Source: Ideonella benzenivorans (GTDB taxonomy: Bacteria > Pseudomonadota > Gammaproteobacteria > Burkholderiales > Burkholderiaceae_C). From it: a DNA stretch of 64,000 bases. The notes below the pieces were generated by a model. It was not told where the DNA came from and ran no database searches. It saw nothing but the letters and a program-made list of their open reading frames with translations. The stretch covers positions 558,001 through 622,000 of the forward strand of contig NZ_JAGWCB010000010.1 in assembly GCF_020387415.1 (NCBI RefSeq), written 5' to 3'. Positions within the stretch are counted from its first letter, which is position 1. Every line of letters begins with the position of its first letter. Positions 8,718 to 58,837 of the stretch are shown here, one piece after another. The position numbers were made by a program, and so were the translations under genes.

Positions 8718-10196
8718 TCAGAGGCCCAGCGCGCAGCCGTCCTTGCGGCGGTCGGAGCCGCCGATCAGGCGGCCATCGGCCGCCCTCAGCACCACCTGGG
8801 CGCCGCCGAAGTCACTGCGTCCCCCCAGCTCGCCCTGGCCTGTCGGCTCGGTGTAGCCAGCCTGACGCAAGGCCTGGATCCAGGGCTCAGGGGTGCCGGC
8901 TTCCAGCGCCAGCACCTGATCGTTTTCCAGCCGCCAGCGGGGTGCGTCGATGGCCGCCTGCAGCGGTTGCCCCCAGGCCGCCAGACGCACCAGCAACTGC
9001 ACATGCCCCTGGGGCTGCATGGCTCCGCCCACCACGCCGAAACCGGCGTGGAAACGCCCCTCACGCAGCGTCGCACCGGGCACCACGGTGTGGTACGGCC
9101 GTTTGGACGGCCCCGGACCATTGATGTGGCCAGGCTGGCTGAAACCGAAGCCGCGGTTCTGAAGCACGAAACCGCACCCTGGCACGGCGATGCCCGAGCC
9201 GAAACGCTTGAAGATGCTGCTCATCAGCGTGATGGCCAGACCTTGCTCGTCCACCACCACGGTGCAGACCGTGTTGCCAGCCGGATCGGCCACCGTGCGT
9301 TTGGCCTGGCGCATGGCCCGCTGCACGGCCCCCACCATGGCCACCACGGTGGCCGGGTCCTGTGGATCCAGCGCCTGGGGTTCCAGCTCCTCCAAGGCCT
9401 GAAGCACCGCCACGCCATGGGTGTTGGGCGGACACTCCAGCACCGTCAGACCACGGAACTCGGCACACGCAGGTTCGCGGAACAGGCCGTGATGCATGCG
9501 AAAGTCCTCCGCCGACAGGACGCCGCCCAAGGCCTGCACCGCCTGTTCGGCCGCCTGTGCGGGCAGGCCCTGGTAGAAGGCGGGCGGCCCTTCGGCCGCA
9601 ACGGCAGCCAACACCGCCGCCAGTGCCGGGTTGCGGAAGGTCTCGCCCGCCCGGGGGACGGCGTCGGCACCGTACAGCGCGGCACAGTTCGGATCCACCT
9701 GCAGCACGGGACGAAACAAGGCCCATTCCCGCGCCGCCACCGGCGCCACCGCAAAGCCGTCCTGCGCGCACTGGCGAGCCACGTCGAACAGGCCGGCCCA
9801 GGGCAGACGCCCCCAACGCTGGTGCAGATCCCACCAGCCCTGCACCAGGCCAGGTGTCGTCACCGACAGCGGATGCCGCTCCGGAATGCGCCCGCCTGGC
9901 AGTGCAGCCACCCGATCGACCATGAGCGCTGCAGGCGATTTGCCTGTGCCGTTGTAGCTCAAGGGGGGGCCGTCAGGTGGCACCACCATGGCCAGCAGAT
10001 CGCCGCCCAGACCGGTGGCCATGGGTTCCACCACGCCCATCACGGCATCGGCGGCAATGGCGGCATCCACCGCCGAGCCGCCTGCACGCAGACAGCTTGC
10101 GGCCGCCCGGGCAGCCAGCGGATGACCCGTGGCCACCATGGCGCGGGTGCTGATTTCTCCCTGCGGGGAGTCTGAAGAAGCTTGGGGCATGGACAT
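8718..10196 (-). CDS. Gamma-glutamyltransferase family protein, no signal peptide
   Basis: This is a 492-residue Ntn-hydrolase of the gamma-glutamyltranspeptidase family, which self-cleaves and then hydrolyses or transfers gamma-glutamyl amides. The N-terminal ATGHPLAARA and GGSAVDAAIA (about 22-47) are family signatures. The auto-processing nucleophile is probably T309 in GNTVCTVVVD, which aligns with the Thr of the classical TTHYSVVD. Unlike E. coli Ggt it has no export signal and is shorter than 550 residues, so it is probably cytoplasmic, like the acylase/transferase-type branch. It lies 77 bases downstream of a transporter of the same strand, at the edge of the diiron-oxidase locus, and may form an operon with it. 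Confidence 0.88.
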   Translation of the reverse strand: MSMPQASSDSPQGEISTRAMVATGHPLAARAAASCLRAGGSAVDAAIAADAVMGVVEPMATGLGGDLLAMVVPPDGPPLSYNGTGKSPAALMVDRVAALPGGRIPERHPLSVTTPGLVQGWWDLHQRWGRLPWAGLFDVARQCAQDGFAVAPVAAREWALFRPVLQVDPNCAALYGADAVPRAGETFRNPALAAVLAAVAAEGPPAFYQGLPAQAAEQAVQALGGVLSAEDFRMHHGLFREPACAEFRGLTVLECPPNTHGVAVLQALEELEPQALDPQDPATVVAMVGAVQRAMRQAKRTVADPAGNTVCTVVVDEQGLAITLMSSIFKRFGSGIAVPGCGFVLQNRGFGFSQPGHINGPGPSKRPYHTVVPGATLREGRFHAGFGVVGGAMQPQGHVQLLVRLAAWGQPLQAAIDAPRWRLENDQVLALEAGTPEPWIQALRQAGYTEPTGQGELGGRSDFGGAQVVLRAADGRLIGGSDRRKDGCALGL

Positions 10197-10273: not shown

Positions 10274-11740
10274 TCAGCGCCACCCCACGGTGACGACGGT
10301 AGCGAGCAGCAGGCCCAACAGCACTGGGCCCACCAGGCCGCGCACGATGGCCAGCACCGGCACTCGTGCGACGCCGGCGACCACCATCAGCGAGGACCAG
10401 GCGATCAAAGTGCCTCCGCCGGTCCAGACGGCGCCCATCTGCGCCAGGGCGGCCAAGGCTGCCGGGTCCAGTCCCGTCCCGGGGGCGACCGCTCCGGCCA
10501 GGGCGCCGGTCAGGGGCAGACCCGAGAAGCCGGAGCCATCGATGCCTGTCAGGATGCCTACGCCCAGCATGCCCAGCGCCACTGCCCAGGGGCTGTCGGG
10601 AAGGTACTGCTGCGCATGCCGCACCAGGTCGAAGAGCAAGCCCGGCGTCGGCGCAGCCGGTGGCACATCGAGGATGCTGCCCGCGGTGTCGGCCGAACCA
10701 ATGAAGAAAAAGCCTGCCACCGGCAGCACGCACCCCATGGTGCGGAAGGCGAACACGAAACCCTCGGTGAGGTGGTCGCCGATGCGGTCGAGGTAGGGCC
10801 TCATGCCCTGCCGCCTGCCATCGGCGGCCGTGACCAGCATCAACAACAGCCCGGCGCTGCCGCCCAGCAGTCGTCCTGCGCCCGCCCCCTGCAGCACCGG
10901 TTGCTGCCCCAACAGATGGGGCAGCGCCATCAGCACGATCAGTGCTGCAAAAACCACCCACACACTGCAGGCCACCAGCCAGGGTGCCCTGTTGCCGGCC
11001 GGGTGGGGGCTCTCGTCGATCTCTTCCTCGATCTGCCCCTCGACGATCTCGTCCACCCGCCCTTGCCAGAGGTGCAACCATTGTGCGCTGGGCCGGCGCA
11101 GATGCCGCCGCGTGCGCAGGTAGATCCAGGCCAGTGCCACACCCCCGGTGAGGCTCGACAGCCCCCAGGCGCGCAGGGCCACGGCCTGCGGGTCCACGCC
11201 GGCGGCCCTGGCGCTCAGACCGGGCGCCACACCAATGACCACATCGGCCGACAGGGCCATGCCCTGCCCTGCCACGGCCAGCACCATGGCAGCCGCCAGC
11301 GGTGGCAAGCCTGCCTCGATGGCCGCGGGCAGCAACACCGCCCCCACCAGGGAAATGGCTGGCGTCGGCCAGAAGAACAACGAAATCACATAGGTGACCC
11401 CTGCCAGCAACACAAAGGCCACGCGCCCGCTGCGCATCACCCGCCGCAGCGGCGTCACCATGCTCACGTCGGCTCCGACGGCACGCATGGCGCTGAGCAA
11501 GGCCGTCATCAGGGCGATGATCAAAAAGATGTTGAACAAGGACTGGGCGGCCGCCCAACTGGCCCCGAACACCGCGGACACCGCACGCAGGGGTTGCCCG
11601 GTCCACGCCCAGGCCACGGCAAAAGTGGCCAGCATGGCTGGCCCCACCACGTTGGCACGCCAAGCCATCGCCAGCAGGATGATCAGCACGCCCGTCAGGT
11701 AGGCCCAATGGGCGGCATGAAGTGGAGGCAGCTCTGACAT
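10274..11740 (-). CDS. Multi-pass membrane transporter, paralogue A
   Basis: This is a 488-residue inner-membrane protein with about 11-12 hydrophobic segments split by a hydrophilic acidic loop (EGQIEEEIDES) in the middle, as in ion-transporter superfamily permeases. The two halves carry similar small-residue loops, FFWPTPAISLV in the first and DGSGFSGLPLTGAL with GGTLIAWSS in the second, suggesting re-entrant substrate loops. It is clearly homologous to the transporter at 12298-13836. The operator-like site GTATACGGTATCC lies 22 bases upstream of its start. Transport of a carboxylate or amino-acid-like compound is likely from context, but the cargo is not identified. Confidence 0.75.
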   Translation of the reverse strand: MSELPPLHAAHWAYLTGVLIILLAMAWRANVVGPAMLATFAVAWAWTGQPLRAVSAVFGASWAAAQSLFNIFLIIALMTALLSAMRAVGADVSMVTPLRRVMRSGRVAFVLLAGVTYVISLFFWPTPAISLVGAVLLPAAIEAGLPPLAAAMVLAVAGQGMALSADVVIGVAPGLSARAAGVDPQAVALRAWGLSSLTGGVALAWIYLRTRRHLRRPSAQWLHLWQGRVDEIVEGQIEEEIDESPHPAGNRAPWLVACSVWVVFAALIVLMALPHLLGQQPVLQGAGAGRLLGGSAGLLLMLVTAADGRRQGMRPYLDRIGDHLTEGFVFAFRTMGCVLPVAGFFFIGSADTAGSILDVPPAAPTPGLLFDLVRHAQQYLPDSPWAVALGMLGVGILTGIDGSGFSGLPLTGALAGAVAPGTGLDPAALAALAQMGAVWTGGGTLIAWSSLMVVAGVARVPVLAIVRGLVGPVLLGLLLATVVTVGWR

Positions 11741-11761
11741 GCGGTGATGCGCCGAATCGTC

Positions 11762-11774
11762 GTATACGGTATCC
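11762..11774. promoter_or_regulatory. GTATAC-N-GTATAC operator-like site 1
   Basis: GTATACGGTATCC matches the 13-bp palindrome with one substitution outside the centre. It lies 22 bases upstream of the transporter start at 11740. It is presumed bound by the GntR/FCD regulator encoded at 22487-23140. Confidence 0.55.
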
Positions 11775-11992
11775 GCCTGCCACGCAATTCACGTGCCTCA
11801 TCCACACCCCGGGATGGGGCACCTGTCGCCTCCCGCCTGCACTTGATTTGGGTTCAGCGCATGGTTCAGGTGCATGCCTGATCAAGGGACTCATGTCTCT
11901 GAGGTACGTCAAGTTGATGCGTCCGATGCCAAGGCCGAGGTGAGCCCTCCGGGTGTTCACCTCGATCAGCACACCGGCATGTACGTCAAAAA

Positions 11993-12005
11993 GAATACTG
12001 TATAC
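11993..12005. promoter_or_regulatory. GTATAC-N-GTATAC operator-like site 2
   Basis: GAATACTGTATAC differs from the perfect palindrome at one position and lies in the AT-rich centre of the divergent region. Confidence 0.6.
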
Positions 12006-12055
12006 GTAAATACAAACGCTGAGCGGTGACATCTTCCCGCTTTGGCATATCGTTT

Positions 12056-12068
12056 GCATACTGTATTC
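12056..12068. promoter_or_regulatory. GTATAC-N-GTATAC operator-like site 3
   Basis: GCATACTGTATTC has two differences but keeps the ATACTGTAT core. Its centre is 63 bp from that of site 2, which is six helical turns. Confidence 0.5.
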
Positions 12069-12193
12069 ACAACAGCGCCATCTTGCTGTTGCTCAACCCG
12101 ACGCCGCTTTCGGTTGCGCCCGAGGACACCCACTCAACGGGCCGCATACGCCGCAAGCACCCATTCCACGGTGGTGAAAGCACTTTCAGAAAT

Positions 12194-12206
12194 GTATACA
12201 GTATCC
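12194..12206. promoter_or_regulatory. GTATAC-N-GTATAC operator-like site 4
   Basis: GTATACAGTATCC has one difference from the palindrome. It lies about 90 bases upstream of the transporter start at 12298 and overlaps a possible -10 box (TATACA). Confidence 0.6.
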
Positions 12207-12297
12207 AACAGATCCAATCCACTCCCCGTTTCTGGTTCGGCCACCTGGCCCCGCCGCACGGATCCCTCCCTCTGACAGCCGCCAACGAGGAGCCATC

Positions 12298-13836
12298 ATG
12301 GATCTTCCCGTCTCCATTTCGCTCGCCCACTGGATGTACCTGTTGGGCGTGCTGGTGATCATCGTGACGATGATCTTCCGGGCCAATGTGCTCGTCCCCT
12401 CCATCATCGCCACCGTGCTGGTGGTGGGCGCCTGGACCGGCAGCCCGCTGGATGCCCTGGGCAGCATCTTCGGCGCCAGCTTCGTGGCCGCCAAAGAGTT
12501 GTTCAACATCTTCCTGGTCATCGCCCTGATGACCGCCTTGCTCAATGCGCTGAAGGACCTGCGCTCAGACATCCTGATGGTCGAGCCCTTCCGGGCGGTG
12601 ATGAAGAACGGACACCTGGCGTATCTGGTGCTTGCCCTTGTCACCTATCTGATCTCCTTGTTCTTCTGGCCCACGCCGGCCGTGCCGCTGGTCTGCGCGG
12701 TGCTGCTGCCAGCCGCCATTGCCGCCGGTCTGCCGCCCTTGATGGGCGCAGCGGCCATTGCGATTGCCGGGCAGGGCATGGCGCTTTCGTCGGACTATGT
12801 GATCAGTGTGGCCCCCGGCATCAGCGCCAAGGCCGCCGGCGTGGCCACGCATCTGGTGGCCGATCGCGCGCTGGTGCTGTCCGTGGTCACCGGCCTGATC
12901 GCGCTCACGCTGGTCTATCTGCGCCATCGGCACGACATCCAGCAGCCTCAGGCGGCCCTGCTCACCCGCTGGCTTTCCAGCAGCGACACCCCGGTCGAGT
13001 CCACGCCCGAGCTCCATGAGGGCAGCGCTCACAAGGCCGAGATTGCCGAAGCCACGCGGCGCGATGCCCCGCTGGTCAGCGATTCAGACTTCTCGAAGGA
13101 GCTTCACACGGTGCCCGCGGCCACGCTGCCCTGGGCCCGCGCCTTCGCCTGGCTGGCCCCGCTGGCTTTCCTGACCATCATCGGGCTGATGGCTGGTTCG
13201 CGCATGGGCCTGCAGCTGCCCGACCTGAAGGGCGGAGCCGCCGCCTCCCTGGTGGGAGGCACCGCAGCCCTCCTGATGATCCTGGCCACCCAGGCCTACC
13301 ACGGCCCCCGCAAGATGCTGGAGTCGGCCGCGGACCACATCACCGAAGGCTTCGTGTTCGCATTCAAGGCCATGGGCTCGGTGCTGCCAATCGCCGGCTT
13401 CTTCTTCCTGGGCGCCAGCGAAACCGCAGCCGCCATCATGGGCACGCCAGCCGACCACACCCCCAGTTTTCTGTTCGACCTGGTGCGCGCCGGGCAGGAC
13501 TGGATTCCCCACAGCCGCGTGCTGGTGGGCCTGGGCGTGCTGATCGTCGGCATGGTCACGGGCATCGATGGCTCCGGCTTCTCCGGTCTGCCGTTGACGG
13601 GTGCGCTCTCCGGCGCCCTGGCACCCGCCTCGGGGGTGGATGCCGCCACATTGGCCGCCATCGGCCAGATGGGGGCCGTCTGGACCGGCGGCGGCACCCT
13701 GATCGCCTGGTCCTCGCTGATCGCGGTGGCGGGCTTCGCCCGGGTCCCCGTGCTGGAGGCCGTGCGCGTGTTGACCATCCCAGTCCTCACCGGGCTGGCC
13801 ACGTCGACCCTGCTGGCCGTCACCTTCCTGTTCTGA
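12298..13836 (+). CDS. Multi-pass membrane transporter, paralogue B
   Basis: This is a 512-residue inner-membrane protein and a full-length homologue of the transporter at 10274-11740. It shares the N-terminal HWMYLLGVLVII helix, the FFWPTPAVPLV loop, the GQGMALSSDYVI segment and the second-half DGSGFSGLPLTGAL and GGTLIAWSS loops. A charged cytoplasmic loop of about 70 residues separates the halves. The porin gene follows after 105 bases on the same strand, so uptake across both membranes may be co-expressed. Three operator-like palindromes lie upstream. The cargo is unknown. Confidence 0.75.
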   Translation: MDLPVSISLAHWMYLLGVLVIIVTMIFRANVLVPSIIATVLVVGAWTGSPLDALGSIFGASFVAAKELFNIFLVIALMTALLNALKDLRSDILMVEPFRAVMKNGHLAYLVLALVTYLISLFFWPTPAVPLVCAVLLPAAIAAGLPPLMGAAAIAIAGQGMALSSDYVISVAPGISAKAAGVATHLVADRALVLSVVTGLIALTLVYLRHRHDIQQPQAALLTRWLSSSDTPVESTPELHEGSAHKAEIAEATRRDAPLVSDSDFSKELHTVPAATLPWARAFAWLAPLAFLTIIGLMAGSRMGLQLPDLKGGAAASLVGGTAALLMILATQAYHGPRKMLESAADHITEGFVFAFKAMGSVLPIAGFFFLGASETAAAIMGTPADHTPSFLFDLVRAGQDWIPHSRVLVGLGVLIVGMVTGIDGSGFSGLPLTGALSGALAPASGVDAATLAAIGQMGAVWTGGGTLIAWSSLIAVAGFARVPVLEAVRVLTIPVLTGLATSTLLAVTFLF

Positions 13837-13941
13837 CCCACCGGCCGACCTGGCGGACCACGCGCCGGGCCGGCCGGTCCTCTCCTCTCCTGGCTGTCGC
13901 AGCCACCCGCCTTCCAACCCCCACTCTGTCAAAGCAGTTCA

Positions 13942-14907
13942 ATGAGACTCCATCATCACCTCTCCCTTCTCGCCACCGTGTCGCTGGCCTCACTGTCCGC
14001 CATGGCCCAGGTCACGCCCGGCGTCCAGGTCTACGGCCGGGTCGACCTGGGTCTGCGGCACGACACGGCCCGCGATGCAAGCGGCAGCAAGATCGGCACA
14101 CAAGTGGCCACCGCCACCAACAACGGCCTGGGCCTGATGGGCACCGAGGATCTGGGAAGCGGCAACAGCGCCTTCTTCCGCATTGAGCATCGGTTCAATG
14201 CCGACACTGGTGCCGTGGTCGACAGCTCCTCCTTCTGGAGCGAGATCGCGGTCGTCGGCCTGCAAGGCCGTTATGGCACGCTGCAACTGGGCCGTCAGGA
14301 TGGCCCCATCTACTACGGTCTCTCACCGGACGCCTTCTACGGCGACTACGTGGGCGGCCGCGGGGAGCGCAAGGCCGGCGCCGACGACAAATTCAACAAC
14401 GGCGCGCTCTACATCAGTCCCGCGTGGAACGGCGTGCAACTCTACCTGGGGGGCACAGCCGACCGGGTCGTGGCCTCCAACGGTCAGGTGCTGGACCATG
14501 CCAAGGCGGCAGCGCTCAAATACCAGCAAGGCCCGCTGATGCTCTCGGCCGCCGTGGCCAAGCGCTTCAACGGCGACACCGCCTGGGGCGGTGGGGCCAG
14601 CTACGACACCAGCGTGGCCACGCTGCTGTTCGTGGCCGGCCGCAACGACGGCAAGGGCTATGCCGGCCTGAGCGACGGCATCCGCACCACGCTGGACATC
14701 GGCGCCATCGTACCGATCGGCCAGGGTTCGTTCCGGGTCAAGTTCAACCACGACAAGCGCGAAACCGCCACAACGCGCAACGTCGGCCTGGGCTATCTGT
14801 ACGACCTGAGCAAGCGCACCAACCTGTACCTGACCGGCAGCAACACCCGTGTCACGGGCCAGTCGGCCACCAATGCCTTCGACCTGGGCATCGTGCATCG
14901 CTTCTGA
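13942..14907 (+). CDS. Gram-negative general porin
   Basis: This is a 321-residue outer-membrane porin of the betaproteobacterial type. A signal peptide (MRLHHHLSLL core, cleavage near AMA-QV at 23) is followed by the family's first strand VQVYGRVDLGL. The GLGLMGTEDLGSGNSAFFRIE region and alternating beta strands follow, and the protein ends in a C-terminal Phe (IVHRF) needed for outer-membrane assembly. It is slightly shorter than the usual 340-380 residues. It lies downstream of the transporter and ends at a strong terminator, so it probably supplies the locus's substrate to the periplasm. Confidence 0.9.
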   Translation: MRLHHHLSLLATVSLASLSAMAQVTPGVQVYGRVDLGLRHDTARDASGSKIGTQVATATNNGLGLMGTEDLGSGNSAFFRIEHRFNADTGAVVDSSSFWSEIAVVGLQGRYGTLQLGRQDGPIYYGLSPDAFYGDYVGGRGERKAGADDKFNNGALYISPAWNGVQLYLGGTADRVVASNGQVLDHAKAAALKYQQGPLMLSAAVAKRFNGDTAWGGGASYDTSVATLLFVAGRNDGKGYAGLSDGIRTTLDIGAIVPIGQGSFRVKFNHDKRETATTRNVGLGYLYDLSKRTNLYLTGSNTRVTGQSATNAFDLGIVHRF

Positions 14908-14929
14908 CCCCTGCGGTTTGCCCAAGACA

Positions 14930-14958
14930 AGAAGGGGCGCCCGCAAGGCGCCCCTTCT
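14930..14958. terminator. Hairpin terminator between convergent genes
   Basis: AGAAGGGGCGCC / GGCGCCCCTTCT is a perfect 12-bp stem with a 5-base loop. It is placed between the ends of the porin gene and the SDR gene, so it can serve both strands. Confidence 0.7.
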
Positions 14959-14989
14959 GGATGCCGGCGGCCCGCAGGCCACACCGGTG

Positions 14990-15769
14990 TCAGTAGGTTC
15001 CCGGGTAGGCTCCCCCGTCCATCAGGATGCTCTGGCCCGTCAGGTAGCTGGCCTGCAGTGAAGCCAGAAAGGCACACAGAGCGCCCACCTCGTCGGGGTC
15101 GCCAAAGCGGCCGGCCGGAACCTCTGCCGCCCGCTGCGCCCACAGTGCCGGCGCGTCCAGCCCCTCCCGCTCTGCCAAGGCCTGCACATGGCGGCGCTGG
15201 GCGTCGGTGGCGAACATTCCAGGCAGGATGTTGTTGATGGTGATGTTGTGGCGAATGGCCTGGCGTGACAGCCCGGCGACAAAGCCCACCAGGCCGGCGC
15301 GAGCGCCGTTGGACAGGCCCAGTTCGGCTTGCGGTGCCTTCACGCTGCGCGAAACGATGTTGATGATGCGGCCAAAGCCACGCGCAGCCATCGGGTCCAG
15401 ACACTGGCGGATCAGCTCGATGGGGCCCAGCATCATGGCGTCCAGCGCGTTCAGCCAGTCCTGGCGATCCCATTCTCGAAAGTCGCCCGGAGACGCACCA
15501 TCTGCATTGGTCACCAGGATGTCCGGCGCAGGACAGGCCGCCAGCGCAGCGGCCCGTCCCGTCTCCAGCCTGATGTCGGCCACCACGGCATGCACCTTGC
15601 CAGCGGTCTGCACACGCAACGCGTTCGCGGCAGCCTGCAGCGTGCTGTCGGTCCGTGCGGCCAGCCACACCTCCACACCGGCCTCGGCCAGCCGGCGTCC
15701 GCAGGCCAGACCCAGGCCCTTGCTGCCGCCAAAGACCAGCGCACGCCGGCCCTGCAATCCCAACTCCAT
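14990..15769 (-). CDS. Short-chain dehydrogenase/reductase with non-canonical active site
   Basis: This is a 259-residue SDR. The NAD(P)-binding motif is FGGSKGLGLACG (about 14-25), and the C-terminal end SYLTGQSILMDGGAYPG is typical. The usual YxxxK is missing. After the strand IINIVSRS the active-site helix reads LGLSNGARAGLVG, with Leu and Ala where Tyr and Lys are expected. Other SDRs with this LSN-type helix exist, so it may be a diverged subfamily and not a dead enzyme. It is the last gene of the leftward operon (oxidase, aldehyde dehydrogenase, GlcG, reductase, SDR), 3 bases after the reductase. Confidence 0.85.
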   Translation of the reverse strand: MELGLQGRRALVFGGSKGLGLACGRRLAEAGVEVWLAARTDSTLQAAANALRVQTAGKVHAVVADIRLETGRAAALAACPAPDILVTNADGASPGDFREWDRQDWLNALDAMMLGPIELIRQCLDPMAARGFGRIINIVSRSVKAPQAELGLSNGARAGLVGFVAGLSRQAIRHNITINNILPGMFATDAQRRHVQALAEREGLDAPALWAQRAAEVPAGRFGDPDEVGALCAFLASLQASYLTGQSILMDGGAYPGTY

Positions 15770-15772
15770 CCC

Positions 15773-16771
15773 TCAGTGCTCCTGAAAGACGAAGCTGTCG
15801 GTGTAGAGGTGCGCCAGGCTGGCACCGGCCGCGGCGAAACGGCTGCGGGCCTCGGCGATCATCGCGGGTGAGCCGCACAGGTAGATGGCCTGCTCAGACA
15901 GATCGGGATGATCGGCCAGCACGGCATCCTGCACATGGCCCCGCATGCCCGTCCAGGCGGTGTCGGCGCGCGAGAGCACGGGCACATAGCGGAAGTCGTC
16001 CAACACTTCGACCCAGCGGCGGATTTCCTCGTCCAGGTACAGCTCGTTGGCCTGCCGCATGCCCCAGTAGAGGCTCACCGGCGGGCGGTTCGGATCGTCC
16101 AGCAGCGACAGCACAATGCTGCGCAAGGGCGCCATGCCCGTGCCAGTGGCCACCAGCACCAAGGGGCGGTCATCCTCGGCCCGGTACTGAAAGCTGCCCA
16201 GCGGCACCTTCAGCGTCAACTCATCGCCCGGCTGCAGATGGCCCAGCAGGCCATCGGTGAACAAGCCACCAGGGATGCGTCGGACATGGAGCTCCAGCAT
16301 GGCCTCACCACTGCGCGAGGCCAGCGAAAAGCTGCGGTGGCGGCCTTCGGCCAGCTTCAGGTCGACATACTGGCCGGGCCGGAAGTTCAGTGCCTGGCCG
16401 TCCTGCAGCGCCAGGCGGACGCGGGCAATGTCAGGATGAAGCCAGTCGACCGCGACCACGTTCACCTTGCGCTCCGCCGGTTCGGCATAGACCACCGGCG
16501 GGCGGACGCTGAGCACCAACTCGGCCGTTTGTGGCAGCGCTTGGCAGGCAATCGCCTGGCCTTGCGCCGCCTCCTCCTCGCTGAGCGCGAAGGGCCACTC
16601 CCCGTAGCGCACCTCCCCCTGCAGCAACTGAACCCGGCAGCTGCCACAGCCACCGAACTGACACTCATGCGGCAGCGGCACCTCCTGGCGCAACGCGGCG
16701 GCCAGCACGGTCTCACCGGGCTGCACCTCGAAGCGCCGGTCCGCCTCCAGCCAGTGGACCGTGGCGTTCAT
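15773..16771 (-). CDS. 2Fe-2S/FAD ferredoxin-NAD(P)H reductase
   Basis: This is a 332-residue electron-transfer protein with the phenol-hydroxylase P5 / CDP-6-deoxyhexulose dehydrase reductase layout. A plant-type 2Fe-2S domain comes first (C37, C42, C45, C76). An FAD-binding barrel follows (RPGQYVDL near 131, RSFSLAS near 146), then an NAD(P)H domain (VATGTGMAPL near 208, CGSP near the end). It is expected to move electrons from NAD(P)H to a ferredoxin or directly to an oxygenase. Its start overlaps the GlcG stop (ATGA), indicating translational coupling in the operon of the diiron oxidase, its likely client. Confidence 0.92.
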   Translation of the reverse strand: MNATVHWLEADRRFEVQPGETVLAAALRQEVPLPHECQFGGCGSCRVQLLQGEVRYGEWPFALSEEEAAQGQAIACQALPQTAELVLSVRPPVVYAEPAERKVNVVAVDWLHPDIARVRLALQDGQALNFRPGQYVDLKLAEGRHRSFSLASRSGEAMLELHVRRIPGGLFTDGLLGHLQPGDELTLKVPLGSFQYRAEDDRPLVLVATGTGMAPLRSIVLSLLDDPNRPPVSLYWGMRQANELYLDEEIRRWVEVLDDFRYVPVLSRADTAWTGMRGHVQDAVLADHPDLSEQAIYLCGSPAMIAEARSRFAAAGASLAHLYTDSFVFQEH

Positions 16772-17247
16772 CGCTTGATGTCCGCCTGCACCACCACCTC
16801 GCGGCCCTGTGTCTGCAGCAAGGCCTGCAGGGCCGCCAGTGCGGCCAGGCCGCACTTCGTGTCCTGCTCACCGTTGCCGCCGCTCAGGCCCACGCCACCC
16901 ACCACCTCACCGTCGACGACGATGGGGAAGCCGCCGACGAAGACGGCAAAGCGGCCCTCGAAGCTCCACTGGATGCCGAAGGCTTCGTTGCCGGGCAAGG
17001 CCGGGCCGTTGGGGGTCTGGTTGAACAGGTGGGTCGAACGCTTGTGACCGGCCGCGGTGAAGGCCTTGTTCCAGGCGATCTGCGGGCCGGTCACACGGGC
17101 ACCGTCCATGCGTTCGAGCAGCAGCGGAAAACCGCCTTCATCCACCACGCACACTGTTTCCAGCACGCCCAGGGCCTGGGCCTGCTGCACGGCGGCGGCA
17201 ATCATCGTGCGGGCTTCGCCGACTTCAAGTTTCGAAAAGGATTTCAT
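16768..17247 (-). CDS. GlcG/HbpS family protein
   Basis: This is a 159-residue protein of the GlcG/HbpS (formerly DUF336) family. The pattern VCVVDEGGFPLLLERMDGA, then the central IAWNKAFTAAGHKRST and the C-terminal VVGGVGLSGGNGEQD are hallmarks. Relatives bind heme, cobalamin or other small cofactors, or accompany catabolic operons, with the biochemical role mostly undefined. No signal peptide is seen. It sits between the aldehyde dehydrogenase and the reductase in a tightly packed operon, so a cofactor-binding or chaperoning role is an inference from context. Confidence 0.85.
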   Translation of the reverse strand: MKSFSKLEVGEARTMIAAAVQQAQALGVLETVCVVDEGGFPLLLERMDGARVTGPQIAWNKAFTAAGHKRSTHLFNQTPNGPALPGNEAFGIQWSFEGRFAVFVGGFPIVVDGEVVGGVGLSGGNGEQDTKCGLAALAALQALLQTQGREVVVQADIKR

Positions 17248-17280
17248 CGAGGTTCCTTGGATTCGTTAGAGCATGGCCGC

Positions 17281-18738
17281 TCAGAGACCGCGGTAGACCA
17301 TCTTGGTCTGGGTGAAGAACTCCAGCCCGGCCCTGCCCGATTCGCGGAAGGTCGACGTGCTGGAATGCTTGACGCCGCCGAACGGCGCGTTGATCAAGTT
17401 GCCGGTGGTGGTGCGGTTGATCTTCACGGTGCCGGACTGGATCTCCTGCGTGAAGTCATGCATGTAGCGCGGGTTGCGCGTGGCAATCGCGGCCGAGAGG
17501 CCATAGCGCGAATCGTTGGCGATGGCCATGGCCTGCGCGAAGCTCTCCACCTCCATCAGCGCGATCACCGGGCCGAAGATCTCCTCGCGGGCGATCCGCG
17601 CCGTGGGCTTGACATCGGTGAAGATGGCCGGCGAGATGTAGTAGCCGTGTTCATAGATGCCGTCGGTCAGGCGCTCGCCACCGCACAGGCAGGTGGCCTC
17701 GCCACGGCCGATGGCGATGTACTCCATCACCGTGCGCAGCTGCTTGGCCGTGGCGAGCGGGCCCAGGTCCATGCCGGGTTGGTCGCCCGGTCCGATCTTG
17801 AGCCCCGCCACCCGGGCCAGCAACTTCTCGGTATAGGCCTGGCGCACGGCGCTCATCACCAGCACGCGGCTGGTGCCGGTGCAAGCCTGGCCCGTCAGCG
17901 AGAAGCCGCCCTTGATGGTCAGCTCCACCGCTTGGTCCAGATCGGCATCCTCCATCACGATCAACGGGTTCTTGCCACCCAGCTCCATCTGCAGCCGGGT
18001 GGTGAGGTGCACGCTGCGGTGGATGTGTTCACCCGCCTGGGTGGAACCGGTGAAGGTGATGGCCCGGATGGCTTCCGAGGTGGTGATGATCGGCCCCACG
18101 TCGCCAGCTGCGCCGGTGACGAAGTTCAGCACCCCCTTGGGCAGTCCCGCCTGGACCAACGCCTCGGTCAGACGCAAGCCGCTGAGCGGCGCGTCCGATG
18201 AGGGCTTGAACACCACGGTGTTGCCCGTCACCAGGGCGGGTGCGAGCTTGCGTGCCGGGATGGAGGCCGGAAAGTTCCAGGGCGAGATGACCGACACCAC
18301 GCCCAGCGGTTCACGCCGGCTGTAGACCTCCAGTCCGGCGTCATCTTGCGGATAGGTCTCGCCGCCCAGGGTCTGGGCTTCGACGGCGTAGAAGCGGAAG
18401 GTCTGCGCCGCACGCAGGAATTCGTCGCGACCCAGCGCTGCGGATTTGCCTTCTTCGCGTGTCAGCTCGTGGCCAAAGGCCTCCGCATGCTCTTCCAGGT
18501 AGGTGGCGGCCTTCAGCAGCACCTGGCAGCGCTTGCTCAGCGGCGTGTGGCGCCAGCCATCGAAGGCCGAGGCCGCCGCGGCCACAGCGGCCTCGGCATC
18601 GGCAGCGCCTGAAGCCTGAAAACGACCCACGATGTCACGCGTATCGGCAGGGTTGATGTTGTCGAAGGTCCGGCCGCCAAGACTGCGGACCCATTCGCCA
18701 TTGATGTGATTGAGGAACTCTTCGGTACGGGATGACAT
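17281..18738 (-). CDS. NAD(P)-dependent aldehyde dehydrogenase
   Basis: This is a 485-residue aldehyde dehydrogenase with complete catalysis: N155 in SPWNFP, K178 for cofactor binding, E252 in MELGGK and the nucleophile C286 in GQACTGTS. The region near MDLGPLATAKQLRTVMEYI and the ending FTQTKMVYRGL resemble alpha-ketoglutaric semialdehyde and related semialdehyde dehydrogenases. It follows the diiron oxidase by 16 bases in the same operon, so it probably oxidises the aldehyde that the oxidase makes. The exact substrate is not known. Confidence 0.92.
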   Translation of the reverse strand: MSSRTEEFLNHINGEWVRSLGGRTFDNINPADTRDIVGRFQASGAADAEAAVAAAASAFDGWRHTPLSKRCQVLLKAATYLEEHAEAFGHELTREEGKSAALGRDEFLRAAQTFRFYAVEAQTLGGETYPQDDAGLEVYSRREPLGVVSVISPWNFPASIPARKLAPALVTGNTVVFKPSSDAPLSGLRLTEALVQAGLPKGVLNFVTGAAGDVGPIITTSEAIRAITFTGSTQAGEHIHRSVHLTTRLQMELGGKNPLIVMEDADLDQAVELTIKGGFSLTGQACTGTSRVLVMSAVRQAYTEKLLARVAGLKIGPGDQPGMDLGPLATAKQLRTVMEYIAIGRGEATCLCGGERLTDGIYEHGYYISPAIFTDVKPTARIAREEIFGPVIALMEVESFAQAMAIANDSRYGLSAAIATRNPRYMHDFTQEIQSGTVKINRTTTGNLINAPFGGVKHSSTSTFRESGRAGLEFFTQTKMVYRGL

Positions 18739-18754
18739 GGCGGGTGCTCTCGGG

Positions 18755-19468
18755 TCAGGCGGCCAGCGCCAGGTTGGGCAGGTCCTGGGCCACGTAGTCG
18801 TGGTAAAGCGCCGTGGTGTAGAGCAGGCGCATCTGGGCACCGATCTCGCAGATCTTCAGGCAACGCTGTTGCAGCTCAACCGTGTTGGCATGTTCCAGCA
18901 CGATCTGGTAGCCGCGCTCGCCGTGGATCTCGTCGGAGACGATGTGCAGGTCGAAGAACTCGACCTCCTCATCGGTGAAGCCATACTTCTCGCGCAGGGT
19001 CGGGGTCTGTTTGCGGTAGATGGAAGGCACCTGCGATTCCAGCCCCACGACCAAGCCGGCCACGGCCACGACCGGGTCTTCACGCATGGCCACGGCATAG
19101 CACCAGCTCTGCAGGCCCCGGGTGGTGGCCGACATGTTCTCCGGGTCCACCACCCGGGCACGGGTGGTGCCACAGGCTTCGGCGAAGCGGATCAGCAGGT
19201 CGGTGTGGCGATCGCCACCGATCTCTTCCTCGTACATGTTGGACAGCAGGAAGTCCTTGGCCTCGGTCATGTGATCAGGCGTGCGGGCGTAGATGTAGCC
19301 CAGGTAGTCGGCGAAAGGCCCCACATAGTGGTAATGGTTCTCGGCCCAGCGCGCCAGATGGGCGCGGCTCAGCTGGCCCGTGGCCCAGGCAATGCTGAAG
19401 GGCGCCTTGTTGGCGCTCTTGCCCTTGATCGCGTTTTCCAGCGCGGTGCGAAATTCATCTCGGTTCAT
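18755..19468 (-). CDS. Heme-oxygenase-like diiron oxidase (CADD/PqqC/TenA-like fold)
   Basis: This is a 237-residue all-helical protein of the iron-containing redox enzyme group (heme-oxygenase-like diiron oxidases, HDO). The six metal ligands of CADD-type HDOs appear with the right spacing: E81 and H88 in EEIGGDRH, E144 in VGLESQVP, and H175, D179, H182 in LHIVSDEIH. TenA and PqqC homologues lack this set. Such enzymes use O2 for N-oxygenation, C-C cleavage or amine formation on small amino acids and acids. It heads the leftward operon and faces two ferredoxin genes across a shared regulatory region. The start at 19468 was chosen; an upstream in-frame ATG at 19507 is possible. Confidence 0.85.
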   Translation of the reverse strand: MNRDEFRTALENAIKGKSANKAPFSIAWATGQLSRAHLARWAENHYHYVGPFADYLGYIYARTPDHMTEAKDFLLSNMYEEEIGGDRHTDLLIRFAEACGTTRARVVDPENMSATTRGLQSWCYAVAMREDPVVAVAGLVVGLESQVPSIYRKQTPTLREKYGFTDEEVEFFDLHIVSDEIHGERGYQIVLEHANTVELQQRCLKICEIGAQMRLLYTTALYHDYVAQDLPNLALAA

Positions 19469-19584
19469 CAGTTGAGACACAGCAGGACTCCCGGCCATCA
19501 AGGCCATGAATGAGGAAGACAGAGGGAAAGTTGCAGAAGAACACCCGATCCATCTCTTGCGGAAAGACAATGTTCAGGCGTTAT

Positions 19585-19597
19585 GGATACTGTATAC
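19585..19597. promoter_or_regulatory. GTATAC-N-GTATAC operator-like site 5
   Basis: GGATACTGTATAC has one difference from the palindrome. On the minus strand it overlaps the -10 box (TATACA, 19591-19596) of a likely promoter whose -35 (TTGTCG, 19613-19618) lies 16 bases away, reading towards the diiron oxidase. Confidence 0.65.
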
Positions 19598-19705
19598 CAA
19601 ATAAAAGCCGCACGACAAGCGGTCCCATGTCGGATCGCGCTGTTTCGCCTCTGGAGATCTGGCCGGGGTGCGCGGTCCGGTGAGGGATGACTTGAATCAA
19701 TGTAT

Positions 19706-19718
19706 GTATACTGTATAC
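19706..19718. promoter_or_regulatory. GTATAC-N-GTATAC operator-like site 6, perfect palindrome
   Basis: GTATACTGTATAC is a perfect 13-bp palindrome about a central T. It overlaps the likely -10 box TATACT (19714-19719), 16 bases after TTGAAT (19692-19697), of the promoter for the ferredoxin operon. Binding here would block polymerase. Confidence 0.7.
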
Positions 19719-19763
19719 TGAAGCTTTGTTGCTTGTTCTCACTTCCTCTCTTTGTTGCCCGCC

Positions 19764-20096
19764 ATGCCTCACGTCATCTTTCACAAGAACGGCCAGACCT
19801 ACAGCGCTGATGTGCCGCTGCGGACCAACCTCGTGGTCAAGGCCGGCATCAAGCAGTTTCCCTTCCCGCACCTGAGCTACGGATGCGGCATGGGCAAGTG
19901 CGCCAAGTGCGCCTGCAAGGTGTTGCAAGGCGGCGAGCAACTGCCGCCGGCCAACTGGAAGGAAAAGAAGCAGCTGGGGGCACACCTGGCAGGCGGCTAC
20001 CGCCTGGCCTGCCAACTCTGGCTTGAGCATGACATCGAGTTGCTGCAGGACGCCGAACCCCTGGCCTCTGCCGTGACACCGGGGGCTGGTGCCTGA
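19764..20096 (+). CDS. 2Fe-2S ferredoxin (first of two)
   Basis: This is a 110-residue plant-type ferredoxin. The cluster ligands are C41, C46, C49 (C-x4-C-x2-C, in YGCGMGKCAKC) and C83 (YRLACQ). The acidic, non-conserved C-terminal tail is dispensable-looking. It heads the rightward operon and its promoter overlaps operator site 6. A ferredoxin beside a diiron oxidase is the expected immediate electron donor. Why the locus has two is open: they may serve different partners or steps. Confidence 0.92.
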   Translation: MPHVIFHKNGQTYSADVPLRTNLVVKAGIKQFPFPHLSYGCGMGKCAKCACKVLQGGEQLPPANWKEKKQLGAHLAGGYRLACQLWLEHDIELLQDAEPLASAVTPGAGA

Positions 20097-20141
20097 GGCC
20101 GCATCGACCCTTCGTCTTCCCATCTCCCTGGAGCCCATCCC

Positions 20142-20468
20142 ATGTACGTGATCCTCACCAGCAAAGCGGGTCAGTTCCGCACCGAAAGCGGGCCGGGCCT
20201 GACCCCCATCGAGGCCTATGACTATCTGCTGTGCGGCCATCCCCGCGCGCGCTTCGTGATCGCCGAGATCGAAGGCGACCCGCGGGTGCGTGTGGTCGAC
20301 ACGGCCGGCCGAGAGACCGTCAATCTGGTGCCTTCGAAGTTCCTCGCGCGCTATGCCAGTCTGGATCAGGCTCGGGGCGAGCTGACCGACCTGTGCCATT
20401 TCGGCCAGATGGAGCTGGCACTGCGCCCTGTCCCGCTGCAGGCCATCACCCCGGGAGCGACGGCATGA
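20142..20468 (+). CDS. Small protein of unknown function between two ferredoxins
   Basis: This is a 108-residue soluble protein with no recognisable motif. It starts with MYVILTSKAGQF and has a strand-rich middle (ARFVIAEIEGDPRVRVVDT), then a short helical C-terminal half with one His (LCHFGQMEL). Two Cys (CGHP, LCHF) are present. The ORF ends with an ATGA overlap with the second ferredoxin gene, so the two are translationally coupled. That suggests it is a partner, maturation factor or small subunit in the same electron-transfer system. Its function is unknown. Confidence 0.8.
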   Translation: MYVILTSKAGQFRTESGPGLTPIEAYDYLLCGHPRARFVIAEIEGDPRVRVVDTAGRETVNLVPSKFLARYASLDQARGELTDLCHFGQMELALRPVPLQAITPGATA

Positions 20469-20743
20469 TTCGCATCACCTTTCTGAACAGCGACGGCAAG
20501 GTGGTGGAAGCACCGCCCAACAGCAACCTGCTGCGGGTCTCGCTCAAGGAAAAGGGTGGCATCCCTTTCAAGTGCGGTGGAGGCCTGTGCGGCACCTGCA
20601 AGTGCCGCATCGAACAAGGGATGGCCCACACCGATGCGGTCAAGCCCAAAGAGCGCCGCCACCTGAGCGATGCGCAGCTGGCCGAGGGCTACCGAATGGC
20701 CTGCCAGACCTTCGTCAACGGCGACATCGCCGTCTCCTGGTAG
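20465..20743 (+). CDS. 2Fe-2S ferredoxin (second of two)
   Basis: This is a 92-residue plant-type ferredoxin with ligands C37, C42, C45 (KCGGGLCGTCKC) and C80 (YRMACQTF). The fold spans the whole protein without a tail. The start overlaps the stop of the unknown 108-residue gene by 4 bases. It resembles the first ferredoxin (19764-20096) in layout but not closely in sequence, so the pair is probably not a recent duplication. It is expected to feed the diiron oxidase or another partner in the locus. Confidence 0.92.
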   Translation: MIRITFLNSDGKVVEAPPNSNLLRVSLKEKGGIPFKCGGGLCGTCKCRIEQGMAHTDAVKPKERRHLSDAQLAEGYRMACQTFVNGDIAVSW

Positions 20744-20751
20744 GCCCGGAC

Positions 20752-21510
20752 ATGGACGCAGGCCTGATCCACAACCCGCTGGCCGCCACCGGCATCCTCA
20801 CCTATCTGGGCATGGGCCTGATGGTGCTGGTGGGCGCCTGCCTGCAAGGCATCGGTGGTATCGGGTTTGCCATGTTCAGCGCCCCGGTGGCGGCGCTGCT
20901 GTTTCCTCAGCTCGTCCCCGGCCCGCTGCTGGCCCTGGGCTGCCCGCTGGCCTTGATGGCCGCCCTGCGCGAGCGTCGCGCCACCCATTGGCCTGCCGCC
21001 GGCATGGCCCTGACCGGCCGGGTGGTGGGCACGGCACTGGCCGCGGCCTGTGTGGCCTGGCTGCCGGTGCGCGCGCTGTCGCTGTTGTTCGCGCTGCTGA
21101 TCCTCTCCGGCGTGGGTTTGAGCCTGATCGGTTGGCGCGTCGCGCCCAGCCGGGCCAACATCACACTGGCCGGCTTGGCGTCCGGACTGATGGGCACGCT
21201 CACCTCGGCCGGCGCGCCGCCCTTCGCGATCGCCATGCAGAACCTGCCCCCCCCGGTACTGCGGGCCACGCTGGGCTGGGTGTTCTTCGTCGGCTCGGCC
21301 GTGTCCCTGCTGACGTTGGCAGTCATGGGGCACATGTCGTTGGCGCAACTGGGCCTGAGCATCATGCTGGCGCCCTGGATGTTGGCCGGCTTCGGCCTCT
21401 CAGGCCCGCTCAACCGGCGCCTGGGCGGCCATTCCATCCGGCCCTTCCTGCTGGGCTTTGCCGCACTGGGCGCCATGGGTGTGCTGCTGCGCCTGTGGCT
21501 GACGGCCTGA
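20752..21510 (+). CDS. TauE/SafE-family membrane permease
   Basis: This is a 252-residue membrane protein with about eight hydrophobic segments and the family's typical GxGG/GAP small-residue loops (LQGIGGIGFAMFSAPV and GLMGTLTSAGAPPFA). The TauE/SafE family exports sulfite, sulfoacetate or other organic anions. It follows the second ferredoxin by 8 bases and precedes the cyclodeaminase-like gene, so it belongs to the same operon. It may expel a product or toxic intermediate. A sulfonate substrate for the locus is one hint but is not proven. Confidence 0.88.
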   Translation: MDAGLIHNPLAATGILTYLGMGLMVLVGACLQGIGGIGFAMFSAPVAALLFPQLVPGPLLALGCPLALMAALRERRATHWPAAGMALTGRVVGTALAAACVAWLPVRALSLLFALLILSGVGLSLIGWRVAPSRANITLAGLASGLMGTLTSAGAPPFAIAMQNLPPPVLRATLGWVFFVGSAVSLLTLAVMGHMSLAQLGLSIMLAPWMLAGFGLSGPLNRRLGGHSIRPFLLGFAALGAMGVLLRLWLTA

Positions 21511-21537
21511 GCCCTTCCCCTCTCCTTCCCTTTTCCC

Positions 21538-22467
21538 ATGCGACACATCACCGACTCCATGATCGATGCCGTGCTGCGGCCCGAAGATGCCCAGCTGGTC
21601 CTGCGCGAGGCGTTCGAACAGTTCGGCCGGGGCCAGGCGGCCATGCAGGCCCGCGAGCGCACCGAAGCCGGGGGCATCAAGCTCTCCACCCTGGGCGCCG
21701 TGATCCCGGGCCAAGGCGTGGCCGGAGCCAAGGTCTACACCACCTTGCAAGGCCGGTTCACCTTCGTCATCTTGATCTTCTCGACCACGGATGGTCGCCC
21801 TCTGGCCTCGATGGACGCCCTGGCCATCACCCGGCTGCGCACGGCCGCCTGCAGCGTGATCGCTGCCCGGCACCTGGCACGGCCGGACTGCCAGACCCTG
21901 GCGCTGTTCGGGGCCGGCACGCAGGGAACTGCCCATGCCGAACAGATGGCCGCGGCCTACGGCCTGCGCGAGATCCGCATCTGCGATCACCATCCGACCG
22001 CCGAAGCGGCTCAGCGCCTGGCCCTGCGCTGCCACACCCAGGTGCGCCTGTGCGACTGTGCCGACGAGGCACTGGACGGCGCCGATCTGGTGGTGACCGC
22101 ATCACGCGCGACAGAACCCCTGTTCGACGGCGACAAGCTGCCACCAGGCTGCTTTGTCGCGGCCATCGGCTCCAGCCTGCCCCACACGCGCGAACTGGAC
22201 GACCGGGCCCTGGCGCGGGCCAGCCGCATCGCCGTGGAATGGAAGCCCCAGAGCCTGCACGAAGCCGGCGACCTGATCCTGGCTGCCCCCGGTCTGGTGA
22301 CCGATGGGAAACTGGTGGAACTGGGCGCGCTGGTGAGCGGCCAGGCACCCGGTCGCCAACACGACGACGAGATCACGATCTACAAGTCGGTCGGTGTGGG
22401 TCTGGAGGACATTGCGTTGGCCGGCCTGGCCTATCGACGCCTGAGCGCGGCTTCGGCCGACTGCTGA
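21538..22467 (+). CDS. Ornithine cyclodeaminase/mu-crystallin family protein
   Basis: This is a 309-residue NAD(P)-binding protein of the ornithine cyclodeaminase/mu-crystallin family. The substrate side has GGIKLSTLGAVIPGQGVAGAK, and the Rossmann motif is LFGAGTQGTAHAEQM (about 123-137). Members deaminate amino acids with cyclisation, reduce cyclic imines, or oxidise opine-type secondary amines. It is the last gene of the rightward operon and converges on the regulator gene with a 19-base gap. It implies that a nitrogen-containing or imine intermediate occurs in the pathway. Confidence 0.88.
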   Translation: MRHITDSMIDAVLRPEDAQLVLREAFEQFGRGQAAMQARERTEAGGIKLSTLGAVIPGQGVAGAKVYTTLQGRFTFVILIFSTTDGRPLASMDALAITRLRTAACSVIAARHLARPDCQTLALFGAGTQGTAHAEQMAAAYGLREIRICDHHPTAEAAQRLALRCHTQVRLCDCADEALDGADLVVTASRATEPLFDGDKLPPGCFVAAIGSSLPHTRELDDRALARASRIAVEWKPQSLHEAGDLILAAPGLVTDGKLVELGALVSGQAPGRQHDDEITIYKSVGVGLEDIALAGLAYRRLSAASADC

Positions 22468-22486
22468 GGCCACCGCCCCACGCCCC

Positions 22487-23140
22487 TCAAGGCTCCATCT
22501 GGGCCGCGTTGTAGACGTGGCGGGTGGCCAACAACGCCGCCAGTTCGGCGTCCCCCTTGATGACCGCCCGCAGGATGGCGGCGTGCTCGTCCCAGTTCTG
22601 CTGCCCGCGGCTGCGGTTCATCGGCGCAAACAACAAGGCCGTGCGGTCGCGCAGCGAGCGCATGATGTCCTGCAGCACCGAATTGGCGGCAATGCTGCCC
22701 AGCGCATCGTGAAAGCGCTGGTTCAGACGCGTGGTGGTGGCCACGTCATCGCTCTCGGCCAGCCGCGTACCCTCTTCGAGAATGCGTGAGAGTTCGGCAA
22801 TCTGCTGTTCATCGTGGCGCTTGGCCGCCAGCTTGGCGTTGAGCCCCTCCAGGGTCGCCCGCACATCCACCAGTTCGCGCATCTGTTCGGCGCTGAAACT
22901 GGTCACCGACGCGCCACGTCGTGGCTCGATCGTCACCAGACCTTCCGAAGCCAGATGGCGCAAGGCCTCCCGCACGGGCATGCGCGAGACACCGAATTCC
23001 TCGGACAGCCGCCCTTCAACCAGACGCTCCCCGGGCGGGATGGCTCCGGAGAGGATCTGTTCGCGCAGCGCCTCCACCACCAGGGCAGTGAGTGGCGAAT
23101 GGCTCGCGCCCAACGTGAGTTCCTTGGTCGGCGCATTCAT
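22487..23140 (-). CDS. GntR/FCD-family transcriptional regulator
   Basis: This is a 217-residue FadR-type regulator. The N-terminal winged helix (VVEALREQILSGAIPPGERL, then GVSRMPVREALRHLASEGLV, about 18-70) is followed by an all-helical FCD ligand-binding domain with the metal-binding His pattern (FHDALG and EHAAIL). These proteins usually repress catabolic operons and are released by the substrate or an early product. It sits at the end of the diiron-oxidase locus and is the natural candidate to bind the GTATAC palindromes. A degenerate copy lies upstream of its own start, suggesting autoregulation. Confidence 0.9.
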   Translation of the reverse strand: MNAPTKELTLGASHSPLTALVVEALREQILSGAIPPGERLVEGRLSEEFGVSRMPVREALRHLASEGLVTIEPRRGASVTSFSAEQMRELVDVRATLEGLNAKLAAKRHDEQQIAELSRILEEGTRLAESDDVATTTRLNQRFHDALGSIAANSVLQDIMRSLRDRTALLFAPMNRSRGQQNWDEHAAILRAVIKGDAELAALLATRHVYNAAQMEP

Positions 23141-23231: not shown

Positions 23232-23244
23232 GCATACAGAATGC
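23232..23244. promoter_or_regulatory. Degenerate operator-like palindrome upstream of the GntR gene
   Basis: GCATACAGAATGC keeps the ATACAG half and is itself a short inverted repeat, but has three differences from GTATACAGTATAC. It lies about 92 bases upstream of the GntR start. Confidence 0.35.
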
Positions 23245-58806: not shown

Positions 58807-58837
58807 GCTGGGCTGCATTCGCTGTGCCGCAACGCAC

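Follow-up and report, generated by a model that had tools for sequence, protein, structure and literature searches.

A 64,000-nucleotide stretch of the Ideonella benzenivorans genome (NCBI RefSeq assembly GCF_020387415.1, contig NZ_JAGWCB010000010.1, positions 558,001–622,000), referred to below as the window, contains a group of genes centered on a predicted heme-oxygenase-like diiron oxidase (HDO). As shown in Table 1, this gene is accompanied by those for two 2Fe-2S ferredoxins, a 108-amino-acid (aa) protein encoded between them, an NAD(P)H reductase, an aldehyde dehydrogenase (ALDH), a GlcG/HbpS-like (DUF336) protein, a GntR-family regulator, and putative transporters and hydrolases. All the partner genes listed in an earlier note on this DNA (two ferredoxins, ALDH, GlcG-like protein, reductase, short-chain dehydrogenase (SDR), TauE/SafE permease and an ornithine cyclodeaminase-like protein (OCD)) were found to be present. 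The note placed the locus at 18755–22467; the genes are real, but those of the operon lie at 14990–18738, outside this segment, and the likely regulon extends over 8057–23140. The 108-aa protein, the transporters, the hydrolases, the GntR regulator and the likely operators had been overlooked.

The HDO matches Pfam family Haem_oxygenas_2 (PF14518; E = 3.4e-37) and is the single PF14518 match in the whole genome. In agreement with the six CADD-type ligands proposed for it earlier, residues E81, H88, E144, H175, D179 and H182 were paired by alignment with identical residues of CADD, which we take to be the CADD metal ligands. These six candidate ligands are identical in 50/50 aligned HDO proteins (the window protein plus 49 of 71 distinct relatives retained after redundancy thinning). 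A Foldseek search with the predicted structure gave CtCADD as the top match (E = 7.7e-8, TM-score 0.86 by target length), other matches including PqqC, TenA homologues, UndA, HrmI, FlcD and BesC (the last at E = 1.6e-3). The protein thus has both the fold and the motif of the HDO superfamily, the latter consisting of three histidines and three carboxylates according to the available part of PMC13108848; its fold is heme-oxygenase-like, not the ferritin-like hydroxylase fold of soluble diiron monooxygenases. The family search and structure prediction suggested in the earlier note yielded PF14518 and a CtCADD-like fold; similarity of the fold model to metal-bound CtCADD suggests that the ligand residues face one common metal site.

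Comparison with eight relatives revealed 89–91% protein identity for the HDO, with 46–73% identity at fourfold-degenerate sites; the corresponding values for six other genes of the cassette are 44–80% and 33–73%. Purifying selection thus acts far more strongly on the HDO than on its partners, and the conservation of the HDO does not just reflect recent spread.

The surroundings of related HDO genes were compared in 89 stretches, comprising 80 loci (the best 80 of 492 relatives in named genomes, with ~87–95% identical HDOs, and thus biased to close relatives) and nine others (L002, L106–L110, L116–L118). Two places are represented twice (L110/L117 and L002/L118), L116 was counted though holding only a 46% identical HDO, and the counts are lowered by stretches of small size or ending with their contig. 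Ferredoxin 1 was found near the HDO gene in 85 stretches and ferredoxin 2 in 84, one further ferredoxin 2 row (L091, where the contig ends) being a cross-hit to ferredoxin 1; counts for the other genes are given in Table 1. Although the gene order follows 28 patterns (some of them mere truncations), the succession ferredoxin 1, 108-aa gene, ferredoxin 2 is constant in every pattern containing all three. The genera carrying the cassette include Cupriavidus, Achromobacter, Variovorax, Bradyrhizobium, Paraburkholderia, Pseudolabrys and Paracraurococcus, and so span beta- and alphaproteobacteria; Cupriavidus metallidurans CH34 (L106) is one of the carriers. Two elements of the earlier interpretation, an oxygenase with its own electron chain and a downstream aldehyde step, are supported by these frequencies of the ferredoxin, reductase and ALDH genes.

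A less biased sample was provided by 399 genomes spread evenly over the order, including that of the window itself. The HDO (E ≤1e-30) was detected in 10 of them and the 108-aa gene (E ≤1e-6) in nine, all nine being among the 10, with the two genes at most 5 kb apart; the stretch from one genome (L138, G610) looks the same as L029. The tenth genome (G615) carries an HDO (81% identity), a DUF336 protein (72%) and divergent ferredoxins 1 (47%) and 2 (66%), a minimal version pointing to these four genes as the tightest core. Of 398 phylum-wide genomes, nine had a match to the HDO at E ≤1e-12: four (own genome included) at least 89% identical, one 46% and the other four 27–30%. The recurrence of the gene set in varied order within the 89 stretches, together with the 399-genome sample, confirmed that the association goes beyond chance.

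Table 1. Genes and operator-like sites of the HDO locus (positions within the window; "stretches" are the 89 compared neighborhoods of HDO genes)
Feature	Position	Strand	Evidence
HDO, heme-oxygenase-like diiron oxidase, 237 aa	18755..19468	-	Pfam, CADD alignment, invariant ligands, fold match
2Fe-2S ferredoxin 1	19764..20096	+	domain search; CX4CX2C...C in 85/85
108-aa protein, family unassigned, no conserved cysteine	20142..20468	+	between ferredoxins; 84/89 stretches
2Fe-2S ferredoxin 2	20465..20743	+	domain search; CX4CX2C...C in 85/85 rows (one a cross-hit, see text)
NAD(P)H reductase, BenC-like, with FAD, NAD and Fer2 (2Fe-2S) domains	15773..16771	-	61/89 stretches
GlcG/HbpS-like (DUF336) protein	16768..17247	-	84/89 stretches
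Aldehyde dehydrogenase (ALDH)	17281..18738	-	79/89 stretches
GntR-family (FCD) regulator	22487..23140	-	82/89 stretches
Transporter-like hydrophobic protein, no curated family	12298..13836	+	76/89 stretches
Paralogue of transporter-like protein, 55% identical	10274..11740	-	sequence comparison
Two operator-like palindromes	19585..19718	.	divergent HDO/ferredoxin 1 promoter region
Four operator-like palindromes	11762..12206	.	between divergent transporter genes
Degenerate operator-like site, 2 mismatches	23232..23242	-	upstream of GntR gene
TauE/SafE-family permease, accessory	20752..21510	+	51/89 stretches
Ornithine cyclodeaminase/mu-crystallin family protein (OCD), accessory	21538..22467	+	37/89 stretches
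Short-chain dehydrogenase (SDR), accessory	14990..15769	-	13/89 stretches, 6 at at least 35% identity
Gamma-glutamyltransferase (GGT)-family hydrolase	8718..10196	-	homologues in 6/84 other loci
Glutathione S-transferase family protein	8057..8674	-	homologues in 2/84 other loci
Porin, perhaps co-transcribed with transporter, weakly linked	13942..14907	+	porin match in 1/89 stretches

The reductase and HDO genes share a strand and a gene run, so that, as in MboAB, a flavin/2Fe-2S reductase is encoded together with an HDO. The protein encoded between the two ferredoxins gave no match in Pfam or NCBIfam. Across 77 aligned rows its family has eight invariant residues, while cysteine reaches at best 6/77 in any column. 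Its structural model (pLDDT 82) shows six strands followed by a helix and a strand (b-b-b-b-b-b-a-b). A search of the model against PDB folds returned nothing with E below 0.19 (TM-scores ≤0.33 among the 50 matches listed), and the family profile found nothing among PDB sequences at E up to 10. A likeness to MmoB/DmpM by fold, which was considered, is thus unsupported.

In one locus (L095) the 108-aa protein and ferredoxin 2 are joined in a single open frame of 201 aa, and in another (L029, 7693–9021) ferredoxin 2 is joined to an alpha/beta hydrolase in a frame of 442 aa; each fusion comes from one assembly, and a sequencing error is possible. These fusions tie the 108-aa protein to the electron chain. 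In Caballeronia (L107), the genes for ferredoxin 2 and an alpha/beta hydrolase are adjacent, with a 4-base overlap. Possible roles of the 108-aa protein are those of effector, scaffold or cluster-assembly chaperone. Its lack of a conserved cysteine and its co-inheritance with the HDO would suit a small redox-inactive effector, yet no PDB fold matches it at E <0.19. A bolder proposal, that the heme-oxygenase fold independently gave rise to a full multicomponent catabolic monooxygenase (HDO, two ferredoxins, reductase, and a 108-aa gating effector of new fold resembling MmoB/DmpM in role), is regarded by us as doubtful.

Reading of the spacer sequence between the HDO and ferredoxin 1 genes first revealed repeats resembling operators. 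The palindrome ATACTGTATAC occurs seven times in the window with at most one mismatch (0.03 expected) and 14 times at two mismatches (0.70 expected), 13 of the latter at the three places given in Table 1. The second palindrome of the HDO/ferredoxin pair overlaps a promoter-like match at 19692–19719 (1 found, 0.5 expected). All six exact matches to ATACnGTATAC (ATACNGTATAC) in the 4.49-Mb genome fall within this locus, two of them overlapping on opposite strands. When one mismatch was allowed, 20 matches to ATACNGTATAC were found in the genome, 12 of them at this locus; the reversed control gave 11, as against the remaining eight. Two of these eight outside places (L159 and L160) were read and lie, by eye, near an integrase-like gene and DNA-repair-like genes; they were taken as chance occurrences.

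The sites are also shared by related loci. GTATAC is present at most 300 bases upstream of the HDO gene in 85/89 stretches, and the consensus of the sites upstream of HDO in the 89 stretches is TTGTATACtGTATAC. TGTATAC or GTATACA occurs within the same distance upstream of the genes for HDO (81/89), transporter (70/76), TauE (38/50), ALDH (32/79) and OCD (9/37), and upstream of none of those for DUF336 (0/84), the reductase (0/61), the 108-aa protein (0/84) or ferredoxin 2 (0/84); when 300-base pieces were taken at random from these loci, 4.6% had it. For some site-bearing genes, the intergenic space is also that of the transporter or HDO gene. Judged from sequence, this is the distribution that operators at operon heads would show, and the GntR protein presumably binds the GTATAC-type sites. 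Their occurrence, which is a new observation, marks out the likely regulon (8057–23140), which gains the two transporter-like proteins, a GGT-family hydrolase and a glutathione transferase; the last two and the transporter paralogue belong to it if the part from 11740 down to 8057 is a single operon.

The best NCBIfam models for the ALDH are 2,5-dioxovalerate/alpha-ketoglutarate semialdehyde dehydrogenases, below their cut-off. An attempt to read its substrate from relatives failed: among the nearest models and structures are dehydrogenases acting on betaine aldehyde, phenylacetaldehyde, succinate semialdehyde and ketoglutarate semialdehyde, too varied a set for any conclusion. In the DUF336 protein, K61, S122 and D129 are the counterparts of the formaldehyde-pocket residues of EfgA by motif spacing rather than direct alignment (11/12 rows); the available part of PMC8153426 describes these residues as largely conserved across the DUF336 family. 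The DUF336 gene remains in the gene run of the HDO even in loci without ALDH (L029, L087, L101 and L136).

Taken together, these data point, with a probability of about 0.6, to a nutrient-catabolism regulon built around a multicomponent HDO monooxygenase that forms an aldehyde, subsequently converted into an acid. An organic solute, in some lineages first freed by a hydrolase from an amide- or ester-linked precursor, would enter via the transporters. Electrons of NAD(P)H would travel by way of the reductase and then the ferredoxins to the diiron site of the HDO, which, once reduced, would activate O2 and convert the substrate into an aldehyde or aldehyde precursor. The DUF336 protein may bind or process the reactive product, the ALDH would oxidize the aldehyde to the acid, and the GntR-family protein would act as a repressor of the whole set at ATACnGTATAC-type sites. 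The model draws directly on gene content, ligand residues, fold, co-inheritance and the shared operator-like sites; from these we infer the metal, the O2 chemistry, the electron route, the repressor–operator pairing, the transport and the aldehyde product. The uptake, ALDH and hydrolase neighbors are consistent with catabolism.

Several points weigh against this proposal. The locus is known from sequence and a fold model, and the available part of PMC13108848 treats HDOs as biosynthetic enzymes. Near the HDO gene, ALDH is absent from 10/89 stretches (some of them short or at contig ends) and the reductase from 28/89, and in G615 neither the 108-aa gene nor those for ALDH and the transporter were found in the 19.9 kb around the 81% identical HDO. 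TGTATAC or GTATACA precedes the GntR gene in only 25/82 cases and that of ferredoxin 1, which is often inside an operon, in 8/85. Moreover, the hydrolases differ by lineage and may therefore belong to neighboring pathways.

These hydrolases were surveyed in 84 loci. Homologues of the GGT-family gene of the window were found in six: 63–71% identical in L026, L084, L095, L100 and L118, and 36% in L062. In L086 and L117 the cassette is flanked by genes for another GGT, a DUF1028 protein and an oligopeptide-type ABC transporter. An amidase is present in 21/84 loci (20 at at least 62% identity), an isochorismatase-family protein with an NMT1/SsuA-like ABC transporter in seven loci of beta- and alphaproteobacteria (L091 at 44–60%), and an alpha/beta hydrolase in four. 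Going by this pattern, removal of an amide or ester would often be the first step, but no single hydrolase is universal. A gene for a sulfite-oxidase-like molybdoprotein is located ~1 kb upstream of the HDO gene in L031 (7661–8896) and other Achromobacter loci.

The earlier note had inferred the oxidation of an amino- or sulfonated carbon source. Its HDO with an electron chain is supported, whereas the amine or sulfonate, a possible substrate, rests on dispensable, non-core genes (TauE in 51/89 stretches, OCD in 37/89, SDR in 13/89). As a specific alternative, the HDO could be a sulfonate or amine monooxygenase converting R-CH2-SO3- or R-CH2-NH2 into R-CHO, with TauE exporting sulfite and ALDH forming the acid. 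TauE occurs in over half of the stretches and carries the upstream motif in 38/50 cases, which could however be due to its divergence from the transporter gene in many loci; it was not found in the Bradyrhizobium loci, the Acetobacteraceae loci or the two Paraburkholderia loci, and TauE-family proteins may carry other cargos. The SsuA-family ABC transporter adjoining the cassette in 7/84 loci would also fit, but the ABC protein scored 80.7 against an SsuA cut-off of 163.5 bits. The molybdoprotein gene ~1 kb upstream in L031 points the same way; its cluster comprises 15 loci, though clusters are leads only, as the home-made gene caller sometimes took shadow frames and merged two families via a fused gene. 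Overall, this alternative seems unlikely. We give similarly little credence to a BesC/UndA-like reaction in which an amino acid or a fatty-acid-like acid is fragmented oxidatively at a C-C or C-N bond, releasing a small aldehyde, such as formaldehyde, that is sensed by the DUF336 protein. The HDOs studied act mostly on amino or fatty acids (according to the available part of PMC13108848), and the DUF336 protein, judged by motif spacing, has the pocket residues of EfgA (11/12 rows; PMC8153426, in part) and stays with the HDO where ALDH is missing; on the other hand, inspection by eye, with no search aimed at them, showed no genes of a formaldehyde pathway next to the cassette.

That the HDO is a self-sacrificing p-aminobenzoate synthase of CADD type, or an enzyme of PqqC/TenA type, is highly improbable, even though CADD is its closest solved relative by both sequence (65 bits) and fold. 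CtCADD cleaves its own Tyr27 and Lys152 to make p-aminobenzoate (PMC13108848, in part); in the alignment, read by eye, these residues are paired with Ser25 and Gln154 of the window HDO, both invariant in 50/50 proteins, and with both sacrificial residues replaced the protein is not a CADD. It scored 96.9 bits against a cut-off of 200 with the CADD model TIGR04305 and 46.7 against 240 with the PqqC model TIGR02111, and ferredoxins, an ALDH and a transporter would be unsuited to a role in folate or PQQ synthesis. The cluster might instead make a secreted small molecule, as described for other HDOs (PMC13108848, in part), with the transporter-like proteins, which might work in either direction, as exporters and the hydrolases as trimming enzymes. 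This is improbable: no ligase, NRPS or other assembly gene of the cassette was noticed by eye among the genes listed, and uptake and catabolism are the usual setting of an ALDH, of ABC uptake genes (present in some lineages) and of a GntR regulator of FCD type.

Some further features of the window and of related genomes were recorded. Start codons at 18738 (ALDH), 20752 (TauE) and ~23140 (GntR) are likely, and were preferred over the longest-frame starts. Assignment of the transporter-like protein to DUF969 was rejected, as the score was 18.5 against a cut-off of 32 bits, in one of nine members; the comparison rows for its paralogue left out L082 and L100. At the right end of the window (58000–64000) the G+C content drops to 0.51 and the reading frames have a weak third-position bias, which suggests acquired DNA. 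In L116 (genome G237), the 46% identical HDO (9769–10563) lies near genes recognized by eye as those of a Rieske-type oxygenase, SDRs and acyl-CoA-type catabolic enzymes, with no ferredoxin/108-aa trio; it possibly represents a second catabolic HDO group. The G615 genome holds, in addition to the minimal cassette, a 32% identical HDO (L137, 4514–5200) adjoining genes for an MFS transporter and a Bug-type solute-binding protein.

More than 10,000 proteins belong to the HDO family, about a dozen having been functionally validated (PMC13108848, March 2026, in part), and an HDO involved in desiccation protection is described as having no known reaction in the available part of PMC13232832 (June 2026). 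MboA is an example of an HDO that needs a flavin/2Fe-2S reductase, and MboAB may be the first characterized pair of an HDO and a dedicated redox partner (available part of PMC13185094, April 2026). In line with the statement of the earlier note that the locus could not be matched to a described pathway, neither a catabolic HDO nor this gene set was found among the matches listed in open PMC full texts. If the proposed catabolic role is correct, the fixed place of a widespread HDO in a regulon for nutrient use would give access to catabolic HDO chemistry, and the two ferredoxins with the conserved partner would make the electron feeding and gating of an HDO directly testable. The shared operator-like sites would offer a simple route toward the substrate.

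Soluble multicomponent diiron monooxygenases (of methane, toluene or phenol) consist of a diiron oxygenase, an iron-sulfur carrier, an FAD/2Fe-2S reductase and a small partner. The gene set of the window would work alike, including a small partner without a conserved cysteine, but its oxygenase is heme-oxygenase-like instead of ferritin-like, and the 108-aa partner has no significant fold match. CtCADD and NePabS are the nearest proteins in sequence and fold and have an identical ligand pattern, whereas the window HDO has Ser25 and Gln154 in place of the sacrificial Tyr and Lys, and no folate context was seen around it. The DUF336 protein shares with EfgA its membership of the DUF336/HbpS family and, by motif spacing, the conserved K/S/D pocket; efgA has no conserved genomic context according to the available part of PMC8153426, whereas the DUF336 gene of the window is a fixed neighbor of an oxygenase. 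Finally, MboA/MboB of mangotoxin synthesis shares with the locus an HDO with three histidines and three carboxylates encoded together with a dedicated NAD(P)H flavin/2Fe-2S reductase, but it is biosynthetic, and the available part of PMC13185094 mentions neither a separate ferredoxin nor a 108-aa partner. Unlike MboA/MboB, with the HDOs compared by description, the window locus carries two extra ferredoxins as well as transporter and ALDH genes.

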